NCBI GenBank assembly: GCA_027604705.1
Contig: JADHYV010000058.1
Span: 55,618 to 119,617 of the forward strand
DNA length: 64,000 bases
DNA from: Allomyces arbusculus
Lineage: Eukaryota > Blastocladiomycota > Blastocladiomycetes > Blastocladiales > Blastocladiaceae
Direction: 5' to 3'
The position numbers and the translations under genes were made by a program. Position 1 is the first letter of the stretch. Each line of letters starts with the position of its first letter. Below, one piece after another: positions 2,174-64,000 of the stretch. The notes under the pieces were generated by a model, which searched no databases, was not told the DNA's origin, and was given only the letters and a program-made list of their open reading frames with translations.

Positions 2174-5100
2174 CTATTGCATGATGAACTGCTCGGTGCG
2201 CAACAACACGGCATGCAAGCTCGTGCGCAAATCCTCGGCCACCTCGTACATCAACAAGTCGATGGCGAGCCGGTAGAACCGCTTGATGTGTCGTTGGAAC
2301 GGCTCGTCATCGAGCAAGACCAGACCATTCAAGATCGTAAGCAGCACCGGCTTCCACGCGGCCGCGTTGCGCTTGCGCGACTCGGCGTCCATGTCGCGGT
2401 AAGCCTCGAGAATCGCGACCGCCAGCGGGACCAACTTGTTCTCGACGGCGGCACGCTCGGCCATCCGGTCAAGCGACGGGTCGCCGTACATGTGGAAGAG
2501 CAAGTGCAGCAGGCACGTTACCGACGACGTCTCTTGCTTGAGCAAATTGGGCAATTGCTTGGTGAACCCGGACTTCCACAAGGCCGTGCGCAGCTCGAGG
2601 TTGCCGTTGAACGCGCGTGCAAACTGGTACGACTTGTCGAGCGCGGCAACGAGGGCCAGCAAGTGTCGCGCCTGCATGCTCGCATACACGGCCTCGATCG
2701 AGGTCGTCTCAAGTACCGTCTGAATGAGAAGCAGCTGCAGCACGCACTTGACGATTATCTGCTGGAACCGCGCCTGCTGGTCGGTCGCGGACGTGGCGCC
2801 GTCAAGCGGAGACGCAGCTGTGGCCGGATCCATGAGCGCGACCGCCGTCGTCGCTTCAAACAAGTCGGACCACGTCGCGCATACTTGGTCCCACTCGCTG
2901 TCCGACAACATCTTACAGTTGCGTTCCATGAGCTGCTGTAAGCACGAGGTACCGAGCCGGGCCAGCGTCTCGTTCTCCTGCATGATGCACGCCTTGAGCA
3001 GCGACAGCACGTCCGTGAGCTTGTGCACAAGCTGGTCGTAATACGCCCCAAACAAGTCGATGAACTGGCGCAGTGCCGCAATTAACGTCGTGCTCAACCA
3101 GACACTTAGTTCCTCGCCGCGTGCGGCACGTGAACTCGTCGGTTCCATGACGGGCGCAAATAGCGCAAACAAGATATCTGCGGCCACGCGTTTCCAGAAC
3201 GCTGGCGAGAACCGCGCGCCGTGGTCACGCAGGACGGCAAACAGGTAATTGAGCGCGCGCGTGCGCACTTCGAGCTCGCATTCCACGACGACGAGATAGA
3301 GCGCATGCAACGCCGCAAACCACTCGGGCTCGTCAAACTTGTCGCGGTCGTCGACGAGCACGCGCAATGACCGGTGAATCGTCTCGACCGCTTGCAGCGC
3401 CACCTTTTGCGACACTTTCGCGGCCCGGCAATACGCGACTAGCGTGTCCATGGCGTCCGTGTAGTACCCGGCCTCGCGCACTGCCGGCAAATGCTGTGCG
3501 AAAATTACCTTGGCCGCATCAAACGAGAACGTGAACAACGGCTCGTACGTCTCGCGCGCGGCCATGGCCGTATACACGGCCAACACGGCCTTCCACCCGG
3601 ACCGCAATACGGGCGCGCGCGCGGCGACAATCTGCTGTAAACACCGCACGGCCATTTCGCGCACAGGGATCGCGTCGTGGTGCGCGACGACATGTTCAAA
3701 CGGCCGCAGAAACTCGCGCTGGAACTTGAAGTTGGGCAATTCGTCCTTTTCCAAGAACTTCATGGCGAGTTGCCGCAGCGAGTCGAGCGCGAAATATGCG
3801 ACTTGTTCGTTGGCATTGCACCCGACGCGGTTGAAATGCTGCCCGAGAATCGTCCACAGGTTGACCCACTCGACGCGAATGCGCGACATGTTGTAGTAGC
3901 TGATTTCCACGAGCTTGGTGAGCGAGTACATGCGCGGAATCTCCTCGGTCGAGACGGTGCACAGCGCATCAACGAAATCGACGATACCGGCACCGTTCAG
4001 CTTGGCCGACCCGGCAAAGATCTTGTCAGTCGCCACGACAATACTCTGCGAGGTTGTTTCCTGGTGCACGGCAGAGAGCGGGCCTTCGGTCTTTTCCGCG
4101 CCAATCACGTGGAAGCGCTCGAGCTGCGAAATGCACCGCAAGACTTCGAGCCACGATTTCTTGAGCGCGTTCCCCTGCGTCATGGCCACTTCGAGCAACG
4201 TCTTGATGGCCCCGAAATTCTTGTCGCGCATATCCGTCGCGCTCGCCGAGAGCAGCGTGAAATTGTAGACGGTCGTGACCAGCGCATTGCGTTCAAGCTC
4301 CAAGTCAAACACGCACGCGACCGTAATCGCGTGCTTGAACGCCTCGAGCGTCTGTGCTGTCGCCTGCGGGTCGTCGGACGTTTGCAGCACCGTCGAAAGC
4401 GCCGCGAGCGATGCCATCCAAACGAGCTCAAACATGTTGCGCACGTGCTCGGAATGCAGCGCGACAATCCACGACGGAGCGCGCTTGTTGCGCTTCTTGT
4501 CAAAAATCGCCTCCACCTTGGCGACGATTTCCTCGAGCGCCGACGCAAACGCTTCGCGCCGGGCACGACGGGACACCGACACGGCCGACGTGTTGGAAAC
4601 CGCCGCTTTCGCGGCCGCCGCCGCGAGCGGGTCGTCCTTGAGCTTGATCTCATGCTCGGCAATCGTGTCGTAAATCTCGAGCAAAAACTCAGCGGGCAAG
4701 TCCTCGTTATCGTTGATGCCGCGGTTGTTGCGCAAGAAGTCGTCCTTGGACATGCGTTTCTTGACCTGTGGCGAATGCAAGTCGGTGTTGAGCAGAATCA
4801 CCGAGTAGGCCAAGACGTAGGCCGCGTCAGGGTTCGCAAACACGTTCTCCGGATCGACCTTGGCGTTTGTGTAATACCGTTCGGCAAACTTGAGCATCAT
4901 GCGATCAATCTTTTGCGACTCGCCCGGAAGTCGAAACTGCTGCAAGAACTCGCGCATCGCATCGACAAACGACATGCCCGTGAAATCGAGTTGGTCGACA
5001 AACGCGTGCATTACGGCAATCGCCTCCGGGTCGCCCTCGCCAAGGTACTCGCCGAGCGACTGCTTGTTGAGCCCCTCCGTATTATGCAGCCACTGCGCAA

Positions 5101-7612
5101 TCTCGCCCGGGTTCGCCGTGAGCATGCCATGATCGACCAGGTACTGCAACCCGCGCTTGGGTTTGCGATTGAACTGCTGAATCGCCTCGGTCAATACCGT
5201 CTTCTTCTGCTTGCTCGTCTCGAGTTGTTCCGGGTTATCGGCCGCGACCGACAGATCGGCCCCGGCGCCAACGACAGACGGCGGCCGAGCACCACCGACG
5301 ACAGTCCCGGCATCGCTCGCCGACCCGTTCACGCCATCCACCAACGACCCAACCATGGACGGTGCGCGCCCATGCGTTGCCGCCGACCCCGACACTGCGA
5401 GCGACCCGCCCGTGCCCGAATCTGCCACGGCCGAGGCCGCGGCAGCACCGACCTGCGACGCCGACAGCGGCCGCGGCGCCCGATGGATTGCAATCCACTC
5501 GGCGAGCGACTTCAACCCGGTACACAGCGTCGTGAGCGCGACCTTATGCACGTCTTGCGCCGCCGCGGCCGCCGGGTCGGTCGCCGGATCCAGGGGCGGC
5601 AACATGGACGGCGGCGCCGTGACTTGCCGCGCGGCCAAGTTCATGATGCGCTCGTAGATGTTATCGAGCGCGTCCGGATTACAGTCGTAGTTGATATAAA
5701 TTTCGACGACGACCTGTGGCCGCGCCATGATTTTCGTGAGCGCCTGCAGAATGGCCGATTTCTGGGCCGTGGTGGCCGCGCGCATTTCGAGAATGCTGAG
5801 CACGACTTCGCTGAGCAGGACCTCGATTTCCTTTTTCAGGCTTTGCCGCAGGTGCAACACGAGTTCGACAAACACGTCGAGCGCGACCTTGTAAATCGGC
5901 GGGATCGGCGAGGCCAGGGCGCGGCCGACGGCCAAGCCGAGGTACGCGCGCGTTGCTTCGAGGAATGTTGAGGGTACCCACGCCGATCCCGGTGGGGCGG
6001 GGGGCGCCGGCGGGACGTAGCACCCGCGGAAGAAGACGGCCGTGTAGGACGTGATGCACAGCTGGATCAGTTGCAGCGACAAAACGCGTGAGTTGATCGA
6101 TGCCGACCGCACGTCGAGTGAGGTGGACTCGCTGACGGCCTTGGTCGAGAGCTTGCACAGCGCGCGGAAGACCAGGTAGGCATCGCGCACAAAGAGCTCG
6201 TTGGTCGTCGCGGTCGCGGGGTCTTCGAAAAACTGCACCGACCCGCGTCGCGCATCGAGGTGCGGGGTCGCAGGGACAGCTGTCGTGGTTGCGGGTGAGT
6301 CGGGCACGGAACCCGTTGCTGGGGTATCGGACGCAGGTCGCTCGGTGTCATCGCCCTCGTCGTCGTCACCACGCGTGCGCGCGTCGTCGTCGTCGTCAGA
6401 GATCGGCGGCGCGTGCGGGACGTGCGGCGACGGCGGAATCGCAGTCGCCACGGCTGCGGCCAAATCGGGTGACCCGAGCGGCGAGTGCGTCGGCGTCGGT
6501 TCCACGACTTCCGGCCGAATCTGCGACGGCGGTGTCGAGATCATACTCGGTGCGACCGAGGACCTTTGCACATTCGTGCCAATCGTGCTCGCGCGGCCCG
6601 CGGTACTCGACCGCGCCATGAGCGGGTTAGGTGTCGTGGCCGCACGCGCGAAAATGACATTGATCATTTGCGTGAGCGCACCCTGCGCAACCGTCTGGAT
6701 CGTGATTGACTTTGTGACGAGAAAAATGTTCCAGGACGTGCGAACGGCCTTGAGCAGCACGTTGCCATGAATCGGGACGCCCGTCGACGAAACGGCGGCC
6801 AGCAACGCCTTGATCACTTGCAAATGCACTTTTTCGTCCGTGTTTTCGCCGATATTGCATTCGCAAATCAGGTCAATGGCCACGTCGAGCAGTGGGCGCG
6901 ACTCGTTATTGGCGCTGTCAGTCGTGCTGCCACCAGATGGTGGCGCAGAAGACGTGGCATTGAGCAGGTCCGGCATCGACTCAACATCTTGCCGAGCGAC
7001 CGAGGCCACGTCGCGGTCGACGAGCACGTTGTAGGAAATGAGTTTCGAAATGCAGTCGAGCGAAATGGCGATCAGGGCCGCGGACCGCGACGCGCAGGCG
7101 AGCTGGAAGGGCTCGAACATGGCGCGCATGACCTCGGGCGTGAGCAGGTTCATGCCGCTAGCGAACGGAAAGGACCGACGGTCAGTCGAATATCCCTTCC
7201 CTGGCGCCACGCGAACGACTCGGGAGCAGTCGCATGGGCGTATTCAATGAGGCGAGACGCGCGTACCTTGGTGCCGTGTCGGACGAGGCCTCGTCAATGA
7301 GCGTCTTGAGCTTGTCTAGTTAATGCAATAAGCGCATCTCGTCGTCAGTCTCTCTGTCGCTCATTCAGGAGCCGGCACCGCATCGTCGACTCGCGCAGTT
7401 GCAACCTGAGCCCCGCAAAGGAAACACGCCAAGAAGAACGTACTCAGCGCGGCCGACGACGAGTCCTTGAGCTTGGGCAGCCGGCGCACGTCTTTGAGCG
7501 CGAGCATCTTTTGCAGCGCGTCCACGACAAAGACGGCGGCCGGGTTGGCAGCGCCGCTCGCCTGCGAGACAGCGCGCAGCTGCGACTGCGCCGCACCGGC
7601 ATGGCCGTTCAT
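2174..7612 (-). CDS. SEC7: Sec7/BIG-type Arf guanine nucleotide exchange factor (copy 1, 1733 aa)
   Basis: Activates Arf GTPases at the trans-Golgi by GDP/GTP exchange, driving coat recruitment. Exons in transcript order are 7444-7612, 7267-7315 and 2174-7157 (donors GTACGT and GTACGC), giving 5202 coding bases. The N-terminal DCB region (VVDALQKMLALKDVRRLP, then FEPFQLAC and LDCISKLISY) is followed by an HUS region (AYLVFRALCKLS; NYDCNPDALDNIYERIM). The Sec7 domain lies at about residues 718-915 with the catalytic glutamate near 780 (LGEYLGEGD), FRLPGESQKIDRMM and VILLNTDLHS. C-terminal HDS repeats include ISQLERFHVIG and LVEISYYNMSRIRVEW. In the region that sets brefeldin A response it has the Y-S-D-M combination (AYS...LLNTD...KKRM) typical of sensitive enzymes. 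Two short 5' exons restore the DCB start that the long exon lacks. The length fits fungal Sec7 and human BIG1/2. A second paralogue lies at the other end of the window. Confidence 0.93.
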
Positions 7613-27935: not shown

Positions 27936-28466
27936 GATGACGGCGAGGACGCTCGTGCGTCAGGCGCACCAAGCGTGTTGCAATCGTAATCAGGTCCAGA
28001 TGGTTGAGTGCTTGTCCGGTCCCGTGAGTCGCTGGTGCAGACAAGTTAAATTCGAGCCGTCCAACACAGGAAGTCGCTTGTTGCCGCTCCCTGATGCGGC
28101 GAGCTGGCGGCTGTCGTTGATTTGTAGTTGATGAATACAGGCTGCAGCGTTTAGCGACCTAAATTCTGAGGTTGGATTCCGAATTTTGTTGTCGATGGCG
28201 AGACCGCTGGCAACGGAAAACTTGAAAAAATTGGCAAATTATCAGCTGCTGTTGGTGGGCATGACAACTGGTCACTTCCCTGCTCGTGACTGAGAAAACA
28301 CCCACCTCCACGCGCATCTGCCCTCTCCATCCAACACGATCAACGCCGTGGGTGTCACGATTTCGACCGCACCGTCGAGCACATTCCGCACAGCGCTCCC
28401 TGCAACCGCCGCATATCGAGTAATCACGACCCTCTTTCTTGATACTCTGCGTCAACGACCTCCACC
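27936..28466. other. Divergent promoter region, SPATA17 (-) / DBP10 (+)
   Basis: About 530 bases between divergent start codons, somewhat AT-rich in the middle. No open frame, RNA gene or repeat supported. Confidence 0.5.
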
Positions 28467-38838: not shown

Positions 38839-41800
38839 ATGAAGCGCTCGCGCGATCAGACCGACGACCTGCCGCAATCCCCGCCTACGCGCCCCGCCCC
38901 CATTGCCAAGCCGACCACGCCGCTCGCGCTTACTCTGATCGCTCAGTCTGACCGTCACGCACGACCCGAGGCCGCGTCGTCGATCCCTGCTGCTGCTGTT
39001 GTTCCCGCCCCCGCTGCTCCTACCACCACCGTCATGCCCATGCCCATGGACGACGCGCCGCCCTCGCCGCCGCGTTCGCCGCCACCAGCGCCCGGATCGG
39101 ACCCGTCGAGCAGCCCGCTCATGTCCCTGAGCCCGACGCTCAGCTCGGCCGGTGCCTCGATCGCCTCAACGCCGCCGCTCTCTGTGACCACGTCGGCCAG
39201 CACCATGGCGCCGGGCACTACGCTTCTCGGCGCCGCGCGCAGCCCGACCGACTTGGGCATGCGCGTGCAGATCCGCAACCTGATCAACCAGTACGAGCAT
39301 GAGCCGCCCGCGGCCGCACGCGCCTACGCGGCGCGGCACGTCGAGGAACAGAATATGGGGTTTACGGGCGTCGCATTGCGGCTCGCAGCCGAAGGCCTGG
39401 CCGAGCGGTATGCCGAGGAACAGCTCCAGGACACCGAGGACGCGCTCAAGGATTCGGTGCGCGCCATCTTTGACGAATATTGGAGCATGAAGCCGATCCG
39501 GACCGTTTGGCTCGAAATGGCCATCATGGCCGCCAAGGAGTGGAAGGCGCCCACGCTCGGGCAGTTGATCGTGTACGTCTGCGCTCGTCCTGGTCAAACG
39601 TCCCCGCCGTGATCGGTGAATTCACACGACATCTCCCTTTCATCCAGTACCGAAATGAACCTCAAGGGCTTCCCATACACGATTGACGACGCGACTCTGG
39701 TCACCCGTCTTCTCGCCGAAGTCAACGTGTGCATCGACGCAGGCCCATCGGCCGTGGTCCCGGCGCGATCGCTCCTCGACGTGGGCACGCAGCAAGTCAT
39801 TACGTCGGTCCCGCTGTGGCGCGCCTGGATTGAGCTAGAATCGCGGTTTGGCAGCTCGGGGTCGCTCGACAAGGTGCGCGAGCAGGCGGCCAAGGTGTGC
39901 CCCGACGCCATCAAGTACGCCTACATTTCTGATGCAAAAATTGGTCGTCGTGGCCGGAAAGACTGACCCCACCCCTCACTCGACTAGAGCGTGCGACGAC
40001 GATGACCTTCTCCACTCGCAGTCGATCACCATTTCACGACAGCCATCGCCCATGGTCTCGTCCTCATCCGAGTCGACCGAGCTCGGCGACCTCTACAGTG
40101 GGTTTGTCCCGGCATCGCAGCGGCCGCGCGCCCTGCCGGCGCCGCACTCGAGTTTCGACACGCCCACCACGACCAACGGCTTTCACGTGCACGGCAACGC
40201 TAGCATGCTCAGCACCACCTCGACCGCCGCGCCGTCGTCCATTTTCTCGTCGCACACGAGCCCCTCGGCCGCACCGCCCGCGTGGTCAAGCTACATCACG
40301 CCGGCGCCGCCACGGCCGGCCGTCAAGCCCGGTCTCCGCGGTCTGCAGAACCTCGGCAACACGTGTTTCATGGCCTCCGCGCTGCAGTGCATGAGCAACA
40401 CGCCTTACCTAATCCGTGACTACCTGGTCCCGGGCAAGTGGCAGGCCGAGGTAAATCTCGATAATCCGCTCGGGATGCAGGGCGCCATGGCGCACGCATT
40501 TGCCGATCTCATGGCGCAAATGTGGAGCGAGACGTCGCCAGCGACGGCGATTGCGCCGCGCCCGTTCAAGGCCACGATTGCGCGGTTCGCACCGCAGTTT
40601 TCGGGGTACGCGCAGCACGACTCGCAGGAACTGCTCGGGTTCTTGCTCGATGGACTGCACGAAGACCTGAACCGCGTCAAGAAGAAGCCCTATATTGAGG
40701 CCAAGGACGCTGACGGGCGCCCCGATGCCGAAGTCGCGGCTGAGGCTTGGGCCATGCACCGCGCGCGCAACGACTCGATCATTGTCGATTTGTTTCAGGG
40801 CCAGTACCGGTCGCAGGTGACGTGCCAAGTGTGCAACCATCATTCCGTCACGTTTGACCCATTCATGGTCCTCACGCTGCCCGTGCCCGTGACAGCGGCG
40901 CCCCGGGCCGTCAAGCTCACGGCCGTCCCGCTCGACCCGACCCGGAAACCGATCAACGCGGTAGTGTACGTGAAGATCGACGGGTGCATTGGCGATTTGA
41001 TCCGGGTCGCGTCGACGGCCTTGTTTGCGCGCGCTTCGCCGACCGCTGGCGAGGACGCGGACGTGACGTCGCCAGCCGTCAAGGCTGTGCCCAAGGGCAT
41101 ACTCGTGGAAATCTGGTCACACCGCGTCTACAAGCACCACCGCGAGATCGAGCCGCTGTCGGAAATTGAACCTAATGACGAGCTCTTTCTCTACGAGCTG
41201 CCGGCCGACGGCGACTTGCCGCCGGGATACTTGCCCGAGCACGTACCCGCCGCGGCTGCTACCGCCAGCGACGAAGACCAGCCTGCGAGGACTTGGGTAC
41301 CCGTCCTGGCGAACCAGTTCAAGGCCGCGGCACCCCGGACTGGATCGGGCATGTACTACTCGACCCCTTCGGATAGCGCCATGGGGATCCCGACGCTGGT
41401 CATGGTTCCGTCGCCGTACGACCCGAAACTCGCGCGCGAGGCCGTGGTCACGGCGATGCAGCGATGGACGACGTTCCCGTGGAAACCGTTCCGCGAGGCT
41501 ATGGCCGCGGCCAAGACGGCGCAAGTTGCTGCCGCTGCCGCCGCCGCGGTGGGACAGGACGCGGGTGAGTCGCCAATGGCCGTCGACACGCAGTCGGTGC
41601 CAATGGACGAGGACGAGCCCGCCGAGACTGGTGCGGCCGAGAAGGCCGCCGACGCTATCAGCGACGAGGCTATGGTCGAGGACCTCGTGCCGGCCCCTGA
41701 CGATCTCGAGCAATTTTTGCGCGTGGAGCGCGAACCGTCCAGCGGCTCGTGGCGGAGCTCCCCACTGCTCGCCGGCGACCTCGTGGCGCCCGGCACGATC

Positions 41801-51910: not shown

Positions 51911-54900
51911 ATGCCGCAGCTCGCAATGTCCGCGATGCCTGCCATTGGCGCGCCGTCGCCGCCGCCGCCGCCCTTTGCCACGGCACGCATGATGGAGAGC
52001 GGCTCCGTCGATAGCAACGACTCCGGCGTCTACTCGCAGATGCCCACCCCGCGCGATGCGCCCGCACCCGCCGTTCCCTATCTCCCACCGCCGCCGCGCC
52101 GCGTCTCGTCGGTCAAGGCCCTGCGCCAGCAACCGGCCGTGCTCTTGCCGTCGTCGGATGAGCCGGTGCCTGCCCCGCCCGCCTCATTGACCACGCTGCC
52201 GACCACATCGATGGGCCACACTGCTCTTGCGACACCAAACGGTTCGGCATCGCTCTTGACGAGCGCGCTCGCCGCTTCCTATGGTGATGCCGCCCCGCCG
52301 ATGCGCACGTCGAGCGCGGCGGCCTTTCCCGACGCCGACTTCGTCGCGACCACGACCACGGCCACGATAGTCGCCACTACCAAGACGATGACGCCAATGG
52401 CGGCGAACACGACCACGCCCAGTGGCACCCTTCCACCGCCACCGCGCCGCACGCGATCGCGCCGCGGTGGATCCGACCCGGCTCCGCTGCGCTTCCCTGC
52501 CCCGAGCACGTCGGCCGGTGGTGCTGCTGCCAACGGCACTGCTCCGATTGGCATCACGCCCCACCCAGCACGTCGTCCCGGGTCCGACAGTCTCTCGCGC
52601 GAGCGACCGCACTCGGTCCGATCCGGCGTGAGTTTCCAGACCCCCGTTGCCACGACCGCTGCTGCTCGGTCGGCGTCCCCGCCGCCGCCGCATGTCGGCA
52701 GCCCACTCGGACGCAACGAGCCGCTGCAGCTTCCGGCGCATCCGGCCACGCCCACCAGTACCGGGTCGATGCCGCGGCCGCACTCGGTCGGGTCCGTGAC
52801 GGGACTGGCCAATGCCTCGCGCCCGCCAGTCGTGCGTCGCCATACGGGCCACCCGAACTTGGCCGAGTCGTCCAACAACCCGGCGCTCAGCAGTTCCACG
52901 AGCTTTGACCATTCGGCCGGCGGCGAAATGCCGCCCGGGTCACCAACGTCGTCGAGCGCGCCCGTGCGCCGGCGCACCTTGACGCGCAAAGTCTCAGAGC
53001 ACGTCGGGATTGGCAACAAGATCGACAAGCACCACCAAAAGTACGCGTTCATGTACCACCTGCTCACGGGCGTGCGGCTGTCAGTCGGCCGCTGCGAGAG
53101 CAAGGAGGACCGTCCGCTTGTGCCCGACGACTTCAAGGCCCAGCACAAGCTGGCCTCGGATGTGTACGTCTCATCTTTTTTTTCCACTCTGGTGGCGTGG
53201 CAGACCGCACTTAGGCATCAATTGCTCACGCATCGCACTCACCGTCCGTTCCATTTCCTTTCGCTAGCACGGGCAAGGAACTCGAGCCGTCGCAGCGCTA
53301 CGACTTCAAGTTCAAGGACTACTGCCCCATGGTCTTCCGAAAGATCCGCACCGCGTTTGGGCTCACGGCGTCCGATTACCTGAGCTCGCTTACGGGCAAG
53401 TACATCATGTCGGAACTGTCGAGTCCTGGCCGGTCGGGCAGTTACCTCTACTACTCGCACGACTACTCGATGATCATTAAGTCGATTCACCACGCCGAGC
53501 AAAAACTGCTCTTGAAGATATTGCCCGACTACGTCGAGTACATTAGCAAGAACCCAAACACGCTGCTCGCGCGCTACTACGGGCTGCATCGCATGAAGAT
53601 CCCAGGCCAGCAAAAACCCATTCATTTCGTCGTCATGGTGCGTCTACATCTTGCGGCCCCGTACCCGGTTGCGATCGACTCTGACGGACTCTGCCACCTC
53701 TTTTGACCATGAACAGGCCAACGTGTTCCCACCCAACTACGACATCCACCTCACGTTTGACCTCAAGGGCTCGACGATTGGCCGCGAGACGAGTCCCGAG
53801 GACATTGCGCGCAAGGGCAAAAAGGCCGTTCTAAAGGACATTAACTGGCTCAAGATGAACCGCAGGCTTATGCTCGGCCCGGAAAAAGCCAAAATGTTCA
53901 CCGACCAGCTCGAACGCGACATGCTCTTCCTCATGACCAACAAAATCATGGACTACTCGCTGCTGATTGGCGTACACGATTTGACCAAGGGCAACGGGCC
54001 ATGGCGAGATCAGCAGATTCGTGTCTTCGAGGTATGTTGCGCTTGATCGGGTATTCCGTTCGCGGGAGCGAACGACTCAGCTGACCCTGTTGCTCTCGCT
54101 CGTTTCTTTCTACAGCCAAACCGCCAGACCCTACAGCGCACGCCGTCTACGTCGCGCGCCGACGCTGTGCGCCGCGCGCTGCAACAGCCTGAGATCGTGG
54201 CCGCTGACCGCATCTCGGCATTGCAGCTTCCACCTGTTAACTCGCGCCGTGGGCACAAGTCGCTGTTTGTCGCCGACAACGGCGGAATCTTGGCCACCGA
54301 CCAGCAGAACCGACCGGGCACCGAGCTCTACTTTCTCTCGATCATCGACATTCTCACGCCGTACAATGCGACCAAGAAAATAGAACACGCGTTCAAGTCG
54401 GTCACGCAAGACCGGCACCAAATCTCGGCGGTGAACCCCGTCGAGTACGGTAAACGGTTTGTCGCGTTCATGAAGGGGCTCGTCGGGACCCCCGCCGCGT
54501 GGCCCGTCGAGCAGCGGCCTCCGCCGCTCAATACCGCCGCGACAGCCCCGGGAATGCTCGAGAACACCGAGGGGAATGGCGGTGGAGGCTCCGGCGGCGC
54601 CGGCGGGGGTGGGCCGGGATTGGCGCCGGCCGCGGAACCTTTGGCGGCCAATTCGACAGCGTCGTTGCCGCCGGGATTCACGCCCATTGGCCGACCGCCA
54701 CCCCGCACCACGTCGGCGCGCGCTCCCGGTCAGCAGCAGCAGCAGCAGCGCGGGCGACCCGGGTACGGCCGGACCGGTCCCGTCGCCAGGAACGGTGTCG
54801 AGGAAGCACTTCTCGCGGCAACAAGTGCCGAGGCCGCGTCGGCGCCGCGGACTGGCGTTCCCCCCATCGGCGTTGCGTTTGAGGACGACGGCGCCCCGCC

Positions 54901-54967: not shown

Positions 54968-55561
54968 TCGGAGACGCGAAAGCACAAGTGGCGAGATCGC
55001 CGGTGCGCACCACCATCGTCACTTCTCCGCTCTTCCTTGCTCTTCCCTCCCCCTTTGGTCTGTTCGGTTCATGGTTGATGAATCGGTTTTCATTTCCTTT
55101 TGCCCAAAACTTCCACCCTTTCCGTGACCGTTTTTTTTTTCTTTTTTGGCGTCTGTTGTGCTTAATCCAACAGTGGCTGATACGCGATTTTGGATCTTGG
55201 TCGTTGTTTCTTTCTCTCATTCTCGATTCGCTACATCGCCGCGGTTCGATTGCCCTGTCTTCCTTTCCCCCATCTCAGCTCCGTCCCTCCCCTCCCGGCA
55301 ATAAACACCCTGTGCCCCGAAAGTCGAAAATAGACCAAGTCTGGAAATGGAACTCCCCTCACATTCAAGTCCAAACCGTGTCGGCACCAATCGTGTTTCC
55401 AGTTTTCTACAAACAGGACGACCCACGCGGCCGTCCCGCAGCCGAAGTACACGTCCTCCCCGTCGCCCGCACCCGTCTAGTCCCTCCCCGTGCTTCCATT
55501 TCCATCTTGCCAATCGCCCGGTCCGGCCTGCGGCCCGGCGCAGCGTCGACGCCGCATCCTG
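54968..55561. other. Convergent intergenic region, PIP5K (+) / NIPA-like (-)
   Basis: About 590 bases, pyrimidine-rich on the + strand with a T-run at 55130-55147. No coding or RNA signal. Confidence 0.5.
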
Positions 55562-58552: not shown

Positions 58553-61500
58553 ATGTCGGGAATGGCCTCGCCCACGTCGCCTGCCGCCGTGCGCGCCCTT
58601 TACGACAAGATTGGTGCCGAGTTCCCGTCCTCCTACGCGAAAAAGAACAAGGATGTCGTCGACGCCTTTGCCGCGCTGACCAAGCGCCTCGACTCGGTCG
58701 GCGTGCCATCACTCTCCACTCTGCCGACGCTGCCCATCTTCCCCGCGAGTGCTGCAATGAAAGGCATGCTCTTTTCGATCTCGGGATCAATACTCTCCAC
58801 ACGGAACTATTTGCTTACCCCGCCCAACGCCATTGCCAGTCGCAGACCCGACATCAGCCGATTCGATCGCGCTTGCACCCGAGCCCATCATCCCGCCCGT
58901 CGACCTGTTTGCGCCCCTGCGTCTCGCTCTCGACGTGCGCCATAACCCACGCATTCGCGAACTGGCGCTTGATGCTGTCCAAAAGCTGCTCGCCATGGGT
59001 CTGCTCAACGGACCCGTGCCCGGGTCCGAGGTGGCTGATGCTGTTGGCACGCCCAGTGCGGCCAAATCGCCGACGCTCTCGCCAACGGCCATGTCCTCGT
59101 CCGGATCGGCGGCCGATGCTGACACGGTTCCCGCGGGCACGGTTCTGCAACTCGAAGCGACGACGAGTGCTTCCAATGACGACGGGATCAGCGTCCCAGG
59201 CGGCGGGGATGATGCAATCGGCAGCCATACGCCTGCGATCCCGTCGGCGATTCTTGCCGAGGTGCCGAGTACCGGTGCGACGGCTCCGGCGCGCCGCATG
59301 CTGCTCGAAGATGTCATTTCCGCGAGCGCGAGCTGCTTCGCGCCGCTCTCGCAGAGCATTGGCGCTGAGGAGGCGATTCATATCCAGGTCATCAAGGTCA
59401 TCTTGACAGCGACGACGCTGCCGAGCCTGCAGGTGCACGACGTGTCGCTGCTCAAGTCGCTGCAGACGTGCTTCAACTTCTTTCTCTACTCGCGCAACAA
59501 GAACATTATCACGACCGCGCGCGCGGCACTCACGCAGATTCTCTCGTCGGTCGTCTTGCGCACCGTCGCAGACCTGTCGCCGCAAAACGCGCGCGATGCC
59601 TTCATCTCGTTCCGCGCGCTGTGCAAGCTTGCGGCAAAAACGTTTGCCGAGCGCGATGGTGGCGGCAGCTCAGCGGAGCCGTCACCCTTGACTGTGCGGT
59701 GCCGATTGCTCGCGCTCGAGCTGCTCATGACCATGCTCAACCAGTTGAGCCAGGCAAAGTGTCCCGTCGTCGCCGACATTTTGACGAGCCAGGGCGGCGA
59801 TCTGTGCGTTGCCATTTCCAAGAACGCTACGTCGAGTCATGCCGGCTTGTTTGAAAACTCGCTCGCGCTCTTCTCGCTCATCTTGACGCAGCACCGGCAC
59901 CTGTTCAAGCCGCAGATCCCCGTGCTTCTGTGTGACGTCTACTTGCCCGTGCTCGCCGGTAACGCGACGCTGCAGCATAAGCAGCTTCTGCTCCAGTCGC
60001 TCGCGCTCTGGTGCACACAGCCGCAGACGCTCGTCGACCTCTACGTCAACTTTGACTGCGACCTGCACATGCCGTCATGCATCGAGGACCTCCTCCACCG
60101 GTGCTGCCAGGCGTACGCGACGCAACCAGCGCCGGCGCTTGCGGTGCTTGAAGGCGTGCTGAGATCGCTCGCTGGTTGGATGGTCCCGGCGCACCCAATG
60201 TCGCCGATCAACGGCCGCACCAGCGCGTCGCCGCTCGGCGAGGACGGGCAGCCGACGCCTAGCCCGACGGAACTCGGTGTCGGTCCGGCCGAGAGCAAGG
60301 CGTCCGAGGAGAGCGTGATCCAAATGAAGCAGCACACCAAGCATGGACTCGAACTGTTCAACCAGAGCCCGCAAAAGGGTATCGACTACCTTTTCGCGTT
60401 TGATGTAGTCCCGCGCAACGACCCGCACGCGCTTGCCGCCTTCTTGCACGCGAACCCGCCGTCCAAGAGCAAGCTCGGCGAGTTTCTTGGCGAGCTCGAC
60501 CAGTTGGCCGTCATGCACGCATTTGTCGACGCACTCGATTTCCACGGACTTCAATTTGTCGATGCGCTGCGCAGTTTCCTGGCGTTGTTCCGTCTGCCGG
60601 GCGAGGCGCAAAAGATTGATCGGTTCATGGAAAAGTTTGCTGACAAGTACTGCGGCGATAACCCGGACGTGTTTTCGAATGCCGATACGGCCTACGCGCT
60701 CGCGTGTACGTTTGAAGCTCTTCTCTCGTTTATCGCGAATTGGTTTCATCGCGGCCACTGAAACATTGATTGGCGATCACATTCTCTTATTCCCAGTTTC
60801 GGTCATCATGCTCAACACGGACCTTCACTCGAAGCAAGTCAAGAGGCGCATGACCGAGGACGACTTTCTCAAAAACAACCGCCGCATCACCGACAGCCAG
60901 GCGCTCTCGGACGAGTACTTTATGAAGATCTACGACGACGTACGCGGCTCGCTCGTTGCTGGTTCCGGCGCGCAGCTCATGTCGACTCACGGCTGGCTCG
61001 CGCGCACTTACCTCGATTAGATTCGCGCCAACGAGATTCATTTGGAGGATGTGCCCAACGAGGTCACCGAGGACGAGGACCAGCGCAAGGAGCTTTACAA
61101 GCGCGAGAGCCACGTAATTGAAAAGCGGTCGCAGCAAAAGATGAAGGTGCCCAAGGACGTCTCGGCTTGGAAGACGGCCGAGTTGCCCGATTACGCGCGG
61201 CTTATTTTTCAAGGGTCGTTCCGGTCGATTTTGCAGTGTCTCGTTCCGGCTAAGAGCTACACGGGGCTGCGGTCGGCGCTGCAGATTGCGACGCGGTTCG
61301 CGCTCACCGAGGAGCGGCAAGAGTCGCTCGAGGCCTTGGCGCAACTCACGGGGCTCATGACGCCGTCGTCGAGTCTGGCCTCACCGTCGTCGTCTAATGC
61401 CGCATCCGCCGCCGCGGTCGTGTCGGCGCTCGACATGCAGGCAGTGGCGACGCTCGTGCAGGTCGCGCACTCGCTGGCGCCGTCGATCAACGAGTCGTGG

Positions 61501-63507
61501 CCGGTTGTGTTGCAGGGCCTGTCGGAGCTCGACAAACGGTCGATTGACGTGCCCAACGACACGACGGTCCTGATCGACTGCATTTTCACGAGCACGGCTG
61601 CGATCCCGGCACCGGCGCTAGTACATTTTATCATGGCGCTCTGCAGCGTGTCGCGTACCGAGGTCGCGGAAAAGCGGTCCTACTCACTCAAGCGACTCGT
61701 CGAGGTGGCTTACTACAACTTCAACCGCATTCGGTTCGAGTTTAACCAGTTTTTTCCGATCATTCTCGAGCACTTTGTCGAGGTCGTGCAGCTCGACGAC
61801 GATATTGCCACGTTTGCCGTCGACTCGCTGCGGCAGCTTACGTCCAAGTTTCTCGAGCGCGACGAGCTCGCGCACTTCAACTCGCAGCTCGAGTTTATGC
61901 GCCCGTTCCACACGATGATGACGGTCGTCAAGGGCGAGGCGCTGCAGGAGATCATCTTGACGTCACTGCACCAGCTGATCCAGGCGCGGTTCCGCAATCT
62001 CAAGTCTGGATGGAAGGGTGTGTTTCCAGTACTCAACGCCGGCATCCGGTTTCCCATGACCGAGCAGATTCTCGTGCTCGTCTTCCAGCACTTTGCCGAA
62101 CTGCAGAACCAGCACGTTACCGTCGACTACATTGAGTGCCTGGCGCGCGCGTGCTGCGTCGTCGAAAAGACGAGTTTACTCGATCTGCTCGTGTCGGTCC
62201 CGAGCGACCGGATCGCCGTGCTGAGCGGCGTCGTGCAAGTGATCTTGCAGCACCAGCATCTCGCAATGCGCAGCCGCGCGACCGAAGCGCTGTTCCACCT
62301 GCTCGCGGGCGGCGACGATCTCGACACGGATGCGATTGTCGAGCGCGTGCTGCTGCCGCTGTTCCGCGAGAATGATCGACTCGACGTCGTGTGGGTCCAA
62401 GCACTGCAGCAGTTTGTGCGGCTATGGATGGCGGGCATGGAACCCAAGGTGCTGCGCGGTCTTTGTCAAGTACTCGAGCTGTCGGCCGTGCAGCGCAGCG
62501 AGACGGTCGCGCAATGCGCTGTCGTGTGTTTCCAGGAAGTGCTGAAGCACCTCTTGGCGACAGCGGCCGAGTGTGAGCATGCGCACGGCCACACCGCTGC
62601 CGCGGCGTCGGATTCGGCCGACCCAATCACCAACGGGTTGCCTCCGGCAAGCTCAAATACGGCGAGCGAGTCCAGTGATCCGGCAACAGCACCGGTGCCC
62701 ACGGCCAATGCTTTTCCACCCTCGCGTGCGCAGCACGCGGCGCTTTCTCGCTCTGATCTCGGCACGTCGTGGACCCTTGTCATTGCCTGCATGGTCGCCA
62801 TGGCGCAACAGACGCTGCCCAAGGATCTCGAGCGCGTGCGTGGCCCTGGCGCACCGTCAGACGACCCGACCGCACTCGACCCGGCCGATTTCCCGTACGT
62901 GACGCAAATGTGCGCGGTGCACTTGTCGATTCTGTCGATTTTGCAGCCGTTCCTGGGCGCGCACCACACGGCCGTGCCGCTCGAGTTCTACACGGGCGCA
63001 CTCCCGTTCCTCAAGGCCTCGCGCGACTTTGCCATGTCGTTCAACAACAACAACGAGCTGCGGTCGCGCATCTGGAAGGCCGGGCTCACGTCGAACCCGC
63101 CCAATTTGCTGCGGCAAGAGTCACTCGGCACGGCGCTCACAATCATGTGCCTGTGCTGCATTCTCCAAGGGTTTGAACGGCAAGAGCTGCCGTACCTGCG
63201 GTCATTGCGTGACGCGGGTGAGGACGTTGTGAACGAGTTTTTACAGCTGCCGGCCATGACCACGTCCTCAGCGCTCTCCATCAAGACCAAGACATTCATG
63301 GCTCCCAATGTCGCGCTGCTCTACACGCGGCTCGCCGACCTTGCATTCAACATTCCGGGCAAGACGGCGATCATGCCGCTCATCAAGCCGTTTTTCCAGC
63401 TTGGGATCGACATCGTCAAGGATGATGAACCAGCAGCTCGTGTCGCTGTTGCGACCTTCCTTCAGCTGGTGATGAGAAATGTTCTCGACTCGCTTTGGGT
63501 TGGCTAA
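58553..63507 (+). CDS. Sec7/BIG-type Arf guanine nucleotide exchange factor (copy 2, 1563 aa)
   Basis: Second large ArfGEF of the window. Exons are 58553-58748, 58840-60705, 60797-60939 and 61021-63507 (donors GTGCTG, GTACGT, GTACGC), 1563 residues. DCB: VVDAFAALTKRLDS, then LFAPLRLALDVRHNPRIREL. HUS: DAFISFRALCKLAAKTF and NFDCDLHMPSCIEDLLHRC. Sec7 domain at about residues 550-740: FLGELDQLAVMHAFVDALDF with the catalytic Glu near 617, FRLPGEAQKIDRFMEKFADK, then across an intron AYALAFSVIMLNTDLHSKQV and IYDDIRANEIHLEDVP. HDS repeats follow (VEVAYYNFNRIRFEFNQFFP, LEFMRPFHTMMTVVKGEALQ). Compared with copy 1 it has Phe, not Tyr, at the first brefeldin-response position (F-S-D-M). The first intron's acceptor could be 58838-58839 or six bases later. 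It ends about 65 bases before the telomere. Confidence 0.92.
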
Positions 63508-63572
63508 ATGAGAGAATGCATACTGTTTTGTTTTGTTCACCCCTGCTCCCATTGGAGTTTAATGCTTTTGAC
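63508..63572. other. Spacer between the last gene and the telomere
   Basis: Only 65 bases lie between the stop codon of ArfGEF copy 2 and the first telomeric unit. It contains an ordinary AT-rich 3' end (gttttgttttgttcacc) and no subtelomeric repeat. Polyadenylation of the last gene may occur here or inside the telomeric array. Confidence 0.7.
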
Positions 63573-64000
63573 TAGGTTAGGTTAGGTTTTAGGTTTTAGG
63601 GTTTTAGGTTAGGTTAGGTTTTAGGTTTAGGTTTAGGTTTTAGGTTTTTAGGTTAGGTTTAGGTTTTAGGTTTTAGGTTAGTTTTAGGTTTTTAGGTTTA
63701 GGTTTAGGTTAGGTTTTTAGGTTTTTAGGTTTAGGTTTTAGGTTTAGGTTTTTAGGTTAGGTTAGGTTTTAGGTTTTTTAGGTTAGGTTTAGGTTTTTAG
63801 GTTTTTAGGTTTAGGTTAGGTTTTAGGTTTTTAGTTTTTTAGGTTAGGTTTAGGTTTTTTAGGTTTTTAGGTTTTTTAGGTTTTTTAGGTTTAGGTTTTT
63901 TAGGTTTTAGGTTTTTAGGTTTTAGGTTAGGTTTTTAGGTTTTAGGTTTTTAGGTTTTTAGGTTTTTAGGTTAGGTTTTTAGGTTAGGTTTAGGTTTTAG
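63573..64000 (+). repeat. Telomeric repeat array, irregular T(2-6)AGG
   Basis: 428 bases to the window end made almost wholly of units T(n)AGG with n from 2 to 6, mixed without a period: ttagg, tttagg, ttttagg, tttttagg and ttttttagg all occur many times. Exceptions are one AGGG (63598-63601) and two units with AG in place of AGG (about 63679 and 63834). The G-rich strand runs 5' to 3' towards the window's right end, as expected for a right chromosome end. The canonical fungal and animal unit TTAGGG is absent. The array may continue past the window. Confidence 0.95.

Follow-up and report, generated by a model that had tools for sequence, protein, structure and literature searches.

Irregular telomeres are already known. 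In fission yeast the G-run is the variable part of the unit, and in budding yeast the irregular order of the repeats arises from variable template use. Our comparison with published repeats draws on excerpts of the papers cited, in which the fission yeast telomere is termed irregular and the budding yeast telomere is given as G(1-3)T, alongside TTAGG in arthropods (PMC6410037). The excerpts further give TTTTAGG for Klebsormidiophyceae, intermingled TTCAGG and TTTCAGG for Genlisea and TTATT(T)AGGG for Galdieria (PMC7046594), as well as TTTAGGG and TTTTAGGG for Theileria annulata (PMC10100673); T6AGGG is among the reported telomere repeats, and those of Malassezia are TTAGGG or variants such as TTAGTG, TTAAGTG and TTAGGA (PMC12506658, PMC10100673) and TGTTAG (PMC12352072), on which ground this genus was set aside as a candidate source. 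In Tetrapisispora, sub-repeats in the template probably permit alternative annealing registers, and for its family the annealing part is reported to span 1-10 nt (PMC8211666). No T(2-6)AGG telomere is described in the excerpts among the matches listed from the open-licence literature, and a description may exist in the genome report of the species itself.

We analysed a 64,000-nucleotide stretch of Allomyces arbusculus DNA (the window) whose right end lies within such an irregular array. The features that bear on its reading are the following.

63573 to 64000, + strand: irregular array of telomere-like T(2-6)AGG repeats, with the G-rich strand reading 5' to 3' toward the window end

63573 to 63576, + strand: array onset TAGG, preceded by ...TTTTGAC; first unit, excluded from counts

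63995 to 64000, + strand: last unit TTTTAG, truncated by the window end, excluded from counts

63508 to 63572, no strand: spacer of 65 bp from the last stop codon to the array onset, free of called tandem repeats

58833 to 63507, + strand: last gene, a Sec7/BIG-type ARF-GEF paralogue, open to its C-terminal BIG2_C domain

2174 to 7210, − strand: second Sec7/BIG paralogue, an ORF of 1678 aa

We parsed 64 T-runs between 63573 and 64000 and, leaving aside the T1 at the flank and the last run cut by the window, obtained 62 complete units, in which T2 occurs 15 times, T3 12, T4 14, T5 15 and T6 6 times, with no length outside 2-6. The core is AGG in 59 of the 62, AG in two and AGGG in one. All bases from 63577 to the window end match T(2-7)AG(1-3), with the A always single and no substitutions; the array runs without interruption, and the window end falls inside it. 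The original prediction had placed the array, its core and its range of lengths correctly. Tandem Repeats Finder called the interval 63582-63985 with a period of 8 and 20% indels, and within the 64-kb window neither this program nor run parsing found a second array of the T(2-6)AGG kind. The other 63,572 bases hold TTAGG three times on the + strand and seven times as CCTAA; chance would supply 0.02 copies of + strand TTAGG per 428 bp, and the density in the array exceeds this so far that a chance origin is excluded. Single-strand folding, a method blind to G-quadruplexes, turned up nothing, and a scan for bacterial promoters and terminators found none. In the whole window, homopolymers of at least eight outside the array are limited to T8 at 53176 and T10 at 55131. 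The sole AGGG unit sits close to where the array begins (63573-63610), in the part with the shortest T-runs, and might have survived from an older repeat resembling TTTTAGGG.

As far as the excerpts allow comparison, the array resembles each described system in part. It shares with the fission yeast telomere an irregular build of variable homopolymer plus core, although the G-run varies there and a T-run with two Gs varies here. The budding yeast telomere is likewise irregular in order, but has no A, uses a TG alphabet and varies in its number of Gs. Genlisea, like Theileria a milder case of T-run variation, shares the two Gs, a T-run that is off by one and intermingled units, yet it has two variants with C where this array has five lengths with A. 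The units of Klebsormidiophyceae and arthropods both occur in the array, whereas each is reported there as a single unit and not as a mixture. In Theileria annulata and Galdieria the T-run also varies, by one, but with three Gs and two lengths. Tetrapisispora, whose template sub-repeat probably gives more than one register, differs in having units of 28/25 nt and two registers, as opposed to a mononucleotide run and five (PMC8211666).

Genes and introns mark the window as eukaryotic; its GC content is 0.54-0.67 (2-kb steps), and it carries one tRNA-Ala. A Pfam scan of 48 hand-picked ORFs out of those in the window gave 25 with a match, some under the curated cut-off. In addition to the two ARF-GEFs, the genes matched include DBP10, a USP15-like hydrolase, glycerol-3-phosphate dehydrogenase, kinesin, eL8, KTI12, tyrosinase, CorA, NIPA, HECT_2, SNF2 and PIP5K. 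Against solved structures, the DBP10 ORF scored 424 bits with the DBP10 chain of 8i9v, which we take to be that of a filamentous ascomycete, 352 with DDX54 and 318 with the DBP10 chain of 8v84, presumably from yeast; for the eL8 ORF, chains that we assume to be from plants and vertebrates score slightly above those assumed to be fungal, and the kinesin fragment has KIF4 chains as its best matches. These matches suit an early-diverging fungus, as a weak indication, and the GC content had pointed, as a guess, to Blastocladiomycota.

The gene next to the array has DCB, HUS, Sec7, HDS and BIG2_C domains spread over two ORFs, with the DCB domain matched only in its own second part, and more exons may lie upstream. 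Two probable introns, both GT..AG, lie at 60706-60796 (91 nt) and 60940-61020 (81 nt), and their removal yields a single open frame to the TAA at 63507. We considered that it might be a decayed subtelomeric gene, given an in-frame TAG at 61018-61020 and an ORF break at 60761. Both fall in the plausible introns, and this reading was rejected because intron removal restores the frame through the Sec7 domain. The two Sec7/BIG ARF-GEF paralogues lie within 62 kb and share 29% identity in the main stretch of their alignment; the BIG2_C match reaches 191 bits in the 2174-7210 paralogue versus 56 bits in the terminal one, and the best solved relative of the former is a 1937-residue SEC7 protein (1010 bits).

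We read the array as a telomere because (i) the G-strand points outward, (ii) the onset is abrupt, 65 bp past a gene, and (iii) the AGG core stays constant while the T-run varies. The TTAGG-type strand is the + strand, running toward the right end of the window and away from the genes, the right side being assumed to be the chromosome end. The whole feature is one array at one end, and we see about an even chance that it is a physical end made by telomerase and, at the same time, that the template proposed below acts there. Neither TERT nor a Myb protein was found among the 48 scanned ORFs, no Rfam match to a telomerase RNA reached the gathering score within the window, and the window contains no CCTAAAA beyond the array; AACCTAA occurs there once, at 41169, and CCTAAA at 28158.

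The window stops within the array, so that the contig end is not in view, which favours an alternative reading as an internal or ancient telomere-like satellite, decayed by mutation and unequal exchange. Decay should have substituted A and G as well, yet there is no substitution from 63577 on and AGG is kept in 59 of the 62 units; duplication should have left multi-unit repeats, yet no four-unit word recurs. The units differ only by their run lengths, and the duplicated multi-unit words or spread substitutions of a microsatellite or degenerate internal tract are missing from the array. Scans of other DNA bear on the same alternative. The array had no match in viral contigs, and a pattern requiring a T5 unit recovered 53 stretches from genome contigs, bacterial by title, in which the longest T(2-7)AG(1-3) runs among the best 8 of the 53 have at most 11 joins. 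Five of these eight (L014, L044, L045, L048 and L049) mix two or three T-run lengths in short runs, which lends the satellite some plausibility, whereas L009, L043 and L023 have essentially one T length, and the longest runs among the eight (L009 and L043, 11 joins) compare with 63 units here. We consider a decayed internal satellite very unlikely. L009 (1-93) and L043 (5300-5392) belong to one Calditrichia MAG; both contigs terminate in regular CCTAAAAA tandem runs (T5AGG on the opposite strand), and assembly may have split a single locus at a microsatellite. Shorter runs are found in L014, L023 and L048.

We compared models of T-run length by AIC. A uniform distribution over 2-6 (199.57), which has zero free parameters only since its limits were taken from the data, and a truncated geometric (199.75) fit equally well, followed by a shifted Poisson (208.3), a binomial (217.1) and an unbounded geometric (226.0). 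By chi-square the uniform model is not rejected (p 0.33), and the geometric is (p 7.6e-5). One true unit with symmetric indels, tried for T2 to T5, gave values from 230.7 (T4) to 265.6 (T2). These values argue against an assembly or sequencing artefact, in which a uniform unit such as TTTTAGG is blurred by homopolymer miscalls. Coverage is commonly thin at contig ends and T-runs are an error-prone class, yet a fixed unit of T2 to T5 fits far worse (AIC at least 230.7), and a true T4 would mean that 48 of the 62 units are miscalled. Homopolymer runs of at least four number 105 in six ORF stretches (16.3 kb, all with Pfam matches) and show no frameshift, which sets a 95% upper bound of about 3% on the frameshift rate per run; the stretches were picked as open frames and are biased toward this outcome, only two of the 105 runs reach six, and coverage at the contig end may be poorer. 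The array is poorly explained as a single fixed unit blurred by indel error, and we regard such an artefact as very improbable.

The same models bear on polymerase stutter, in which telomerase slips while copying a short A-run and gains or loses Ts but reproduces the AGG core correctly. The variation does sit in the T-run, the excerpt of PMC8211666 gives stalling, stuttering and misincorporation as proposed sources of error, and a geometric truncated at 6 fits as well as the uniform model. A constant slip rate without bounds predicts a geometric tail, which is rejected (AIC 226.0 versus 199.6; p 7.6e-5), and stutter requires an extra rule for the limits 2 and 6. The stuttering suggested in the original prediction therefore survives only in a bounded form, and we hold it to be unlikely. 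The template proposed with it, CCTAAAACC, would, if simply copied, yield a fixed T4. A 3' A-run acting as a sliding annealing zone is in better accord with the sharp limits 2 and 6.

The order of the units provides a further test of how the array was built. Over all 64 runs, the lag-1 autocorrelation of T-run length is 0.08, and among eight lags tested the autocorrelation is nominally positive at lags 4, 5 and 8 (p 0.019, 0.044 and 0.018). Mutual information between neighbours lies below that of 98% of 2000 shuffles. All 59 four-unit words are distinct, as was also the case in 180 of the 2000 shuffles, and the longest recurring word has three units. There is no sign of local duplication as the builder of the array, since neighbour dependence is not in excess and the four-unit words are all distinct. 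Four-unit words that never recur and neighbours free of excess mutual information are predicted by independent draws but not by recent duplication. Bounded lengths would also result from a mixture in which several telomerase RNA genes or alleles, whose fixed A-runs differ in length, alternate at one end, and the excerpt of PMC8211666 describes three telomerase RNA paralogues with distinct templates in Zygosaccharomyces sapae. About five species at near-equal use would be required here, however, and one processive enzyme should leave runs of the same unit, whereas the lag-1 dependence is not above that of shuffles. We judge such a mixture to be distinctly unlikely.

We favour a choice of register by telomerase, with the 3' A-run of the template as a sliding annealing zone, for the lengths T2-T6, because these are bounded, near-uniform and without excess neighbour dependence; our confidence in it is evenly balanced. 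The telomerase RNA template is probably like 5'-AACCUAAAAAA-3', of the general form CCTAAAAAA, and under the register model the RNA would carry AACCTAAAAAA. Copying of the 5' part of the template would make each round stop at ...AGGTT, whereupon the two terminal Ts of the GGTT product could re-pair at any of five registers in the six-A annealing zone. The As left ahead (4, 3, 2, 1 or 0) would then be copied to give T6 to T2, so that each new unit would consist of 2 plus 0 to 4 Ts, drawn afresh each round. Both limits would be hard, with 2 being the Ts already made and 6 the length of the A-run. Tetrapisispora, where more than one annealing register is probable, offers a precedent (PMC8211666). 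Against the register model, pairing through two T:A bases is weak.

The original prediction saw no fixed order among the units. This holds for neighbours, whose dependence is not in excess, and less so for the array as a whole, in which the T-runs tend to lengthen toward the outside (Spearman 0.28; p 0.012 by permutation). With one variable homopolymer, a constant core and no set order, the array is of the irregular, slippage type, the outward rise being the exception. On average the T-run measures 3.35 across the inner half of the array (31 units) and 4.16 across the outer half (31 units; p 0.018). The first T5 is unit 12 and the first T6 unit 32, a pattern that 0.2% of shuffles reach and that was spotted post hoc in a single array at a single end. 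The maximum is T4 in units 1-11 and T5 in units 12-31, and T6 occurs only in units 32-62; the counts within these layers, from T2 up, are 4, 2 and 5; 5, 5, 5 and 5; and 6, 5, 4, 10 and 6, each nearly uniform. The absence of T5 before unit 12 and of T6 before unit 32 is not predicted by a template with a constant run of six As, and neither is the nominally positive autocorrelation at lags 4, 5 and 8. The gain in likelihood from a growing limit is matched by 0.13% of 20,000 shuffles in one direction and by 0.29% in any of four directions. The array might accordingly be a layered record of the evolution or state of the telomerase RNA, in which the A-run of the template lengthened from four to five to six and the older repeats lie chromosome-proximal. 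We treat this as doubtful, a long shot from a pattern seen post hoc, whose gain exceeds that of 99.7% of the 20,000 shuffles with any of four directions allowed.

TRF-type dimers, TRF1 included, tolerate variable site spacing. Successive AGG cores in the array are separated by 5 to 9 bp in 58 of 60 gaps counted; in the remaining two, which fall at the AG units, the distance is 11 and 16 bp. The array holds 59 copies of the 7-mer TTAGGTT. A duplex-binding Myb protein would therefore meet a constant TTAGGTT at changing spacing, and a flexibly linked dimer would need no set spacing. The difficulty that had been raised for such a protein is softer than proposed, since the 7-mer is kept where full units meet (59 counted).

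By the account of its own paper, in the excerpt available, the telomere finder tidk relies on runs of identical units, which suggests that finders of this type could miss T(2-6)AGG ends. If the end is real, a single telomerase RNA template with a homopolymer annealing zone would make register choice, which is hidden in the normal case, a readable output, as the number of Ts per unit would report where the primer landed. Such an end would offer a natural assay of the annealing register and of the tolerance of telomere proteins for a core spacing of 5 to 9 bp, and perhaps the history of a template could be read along one telomere.
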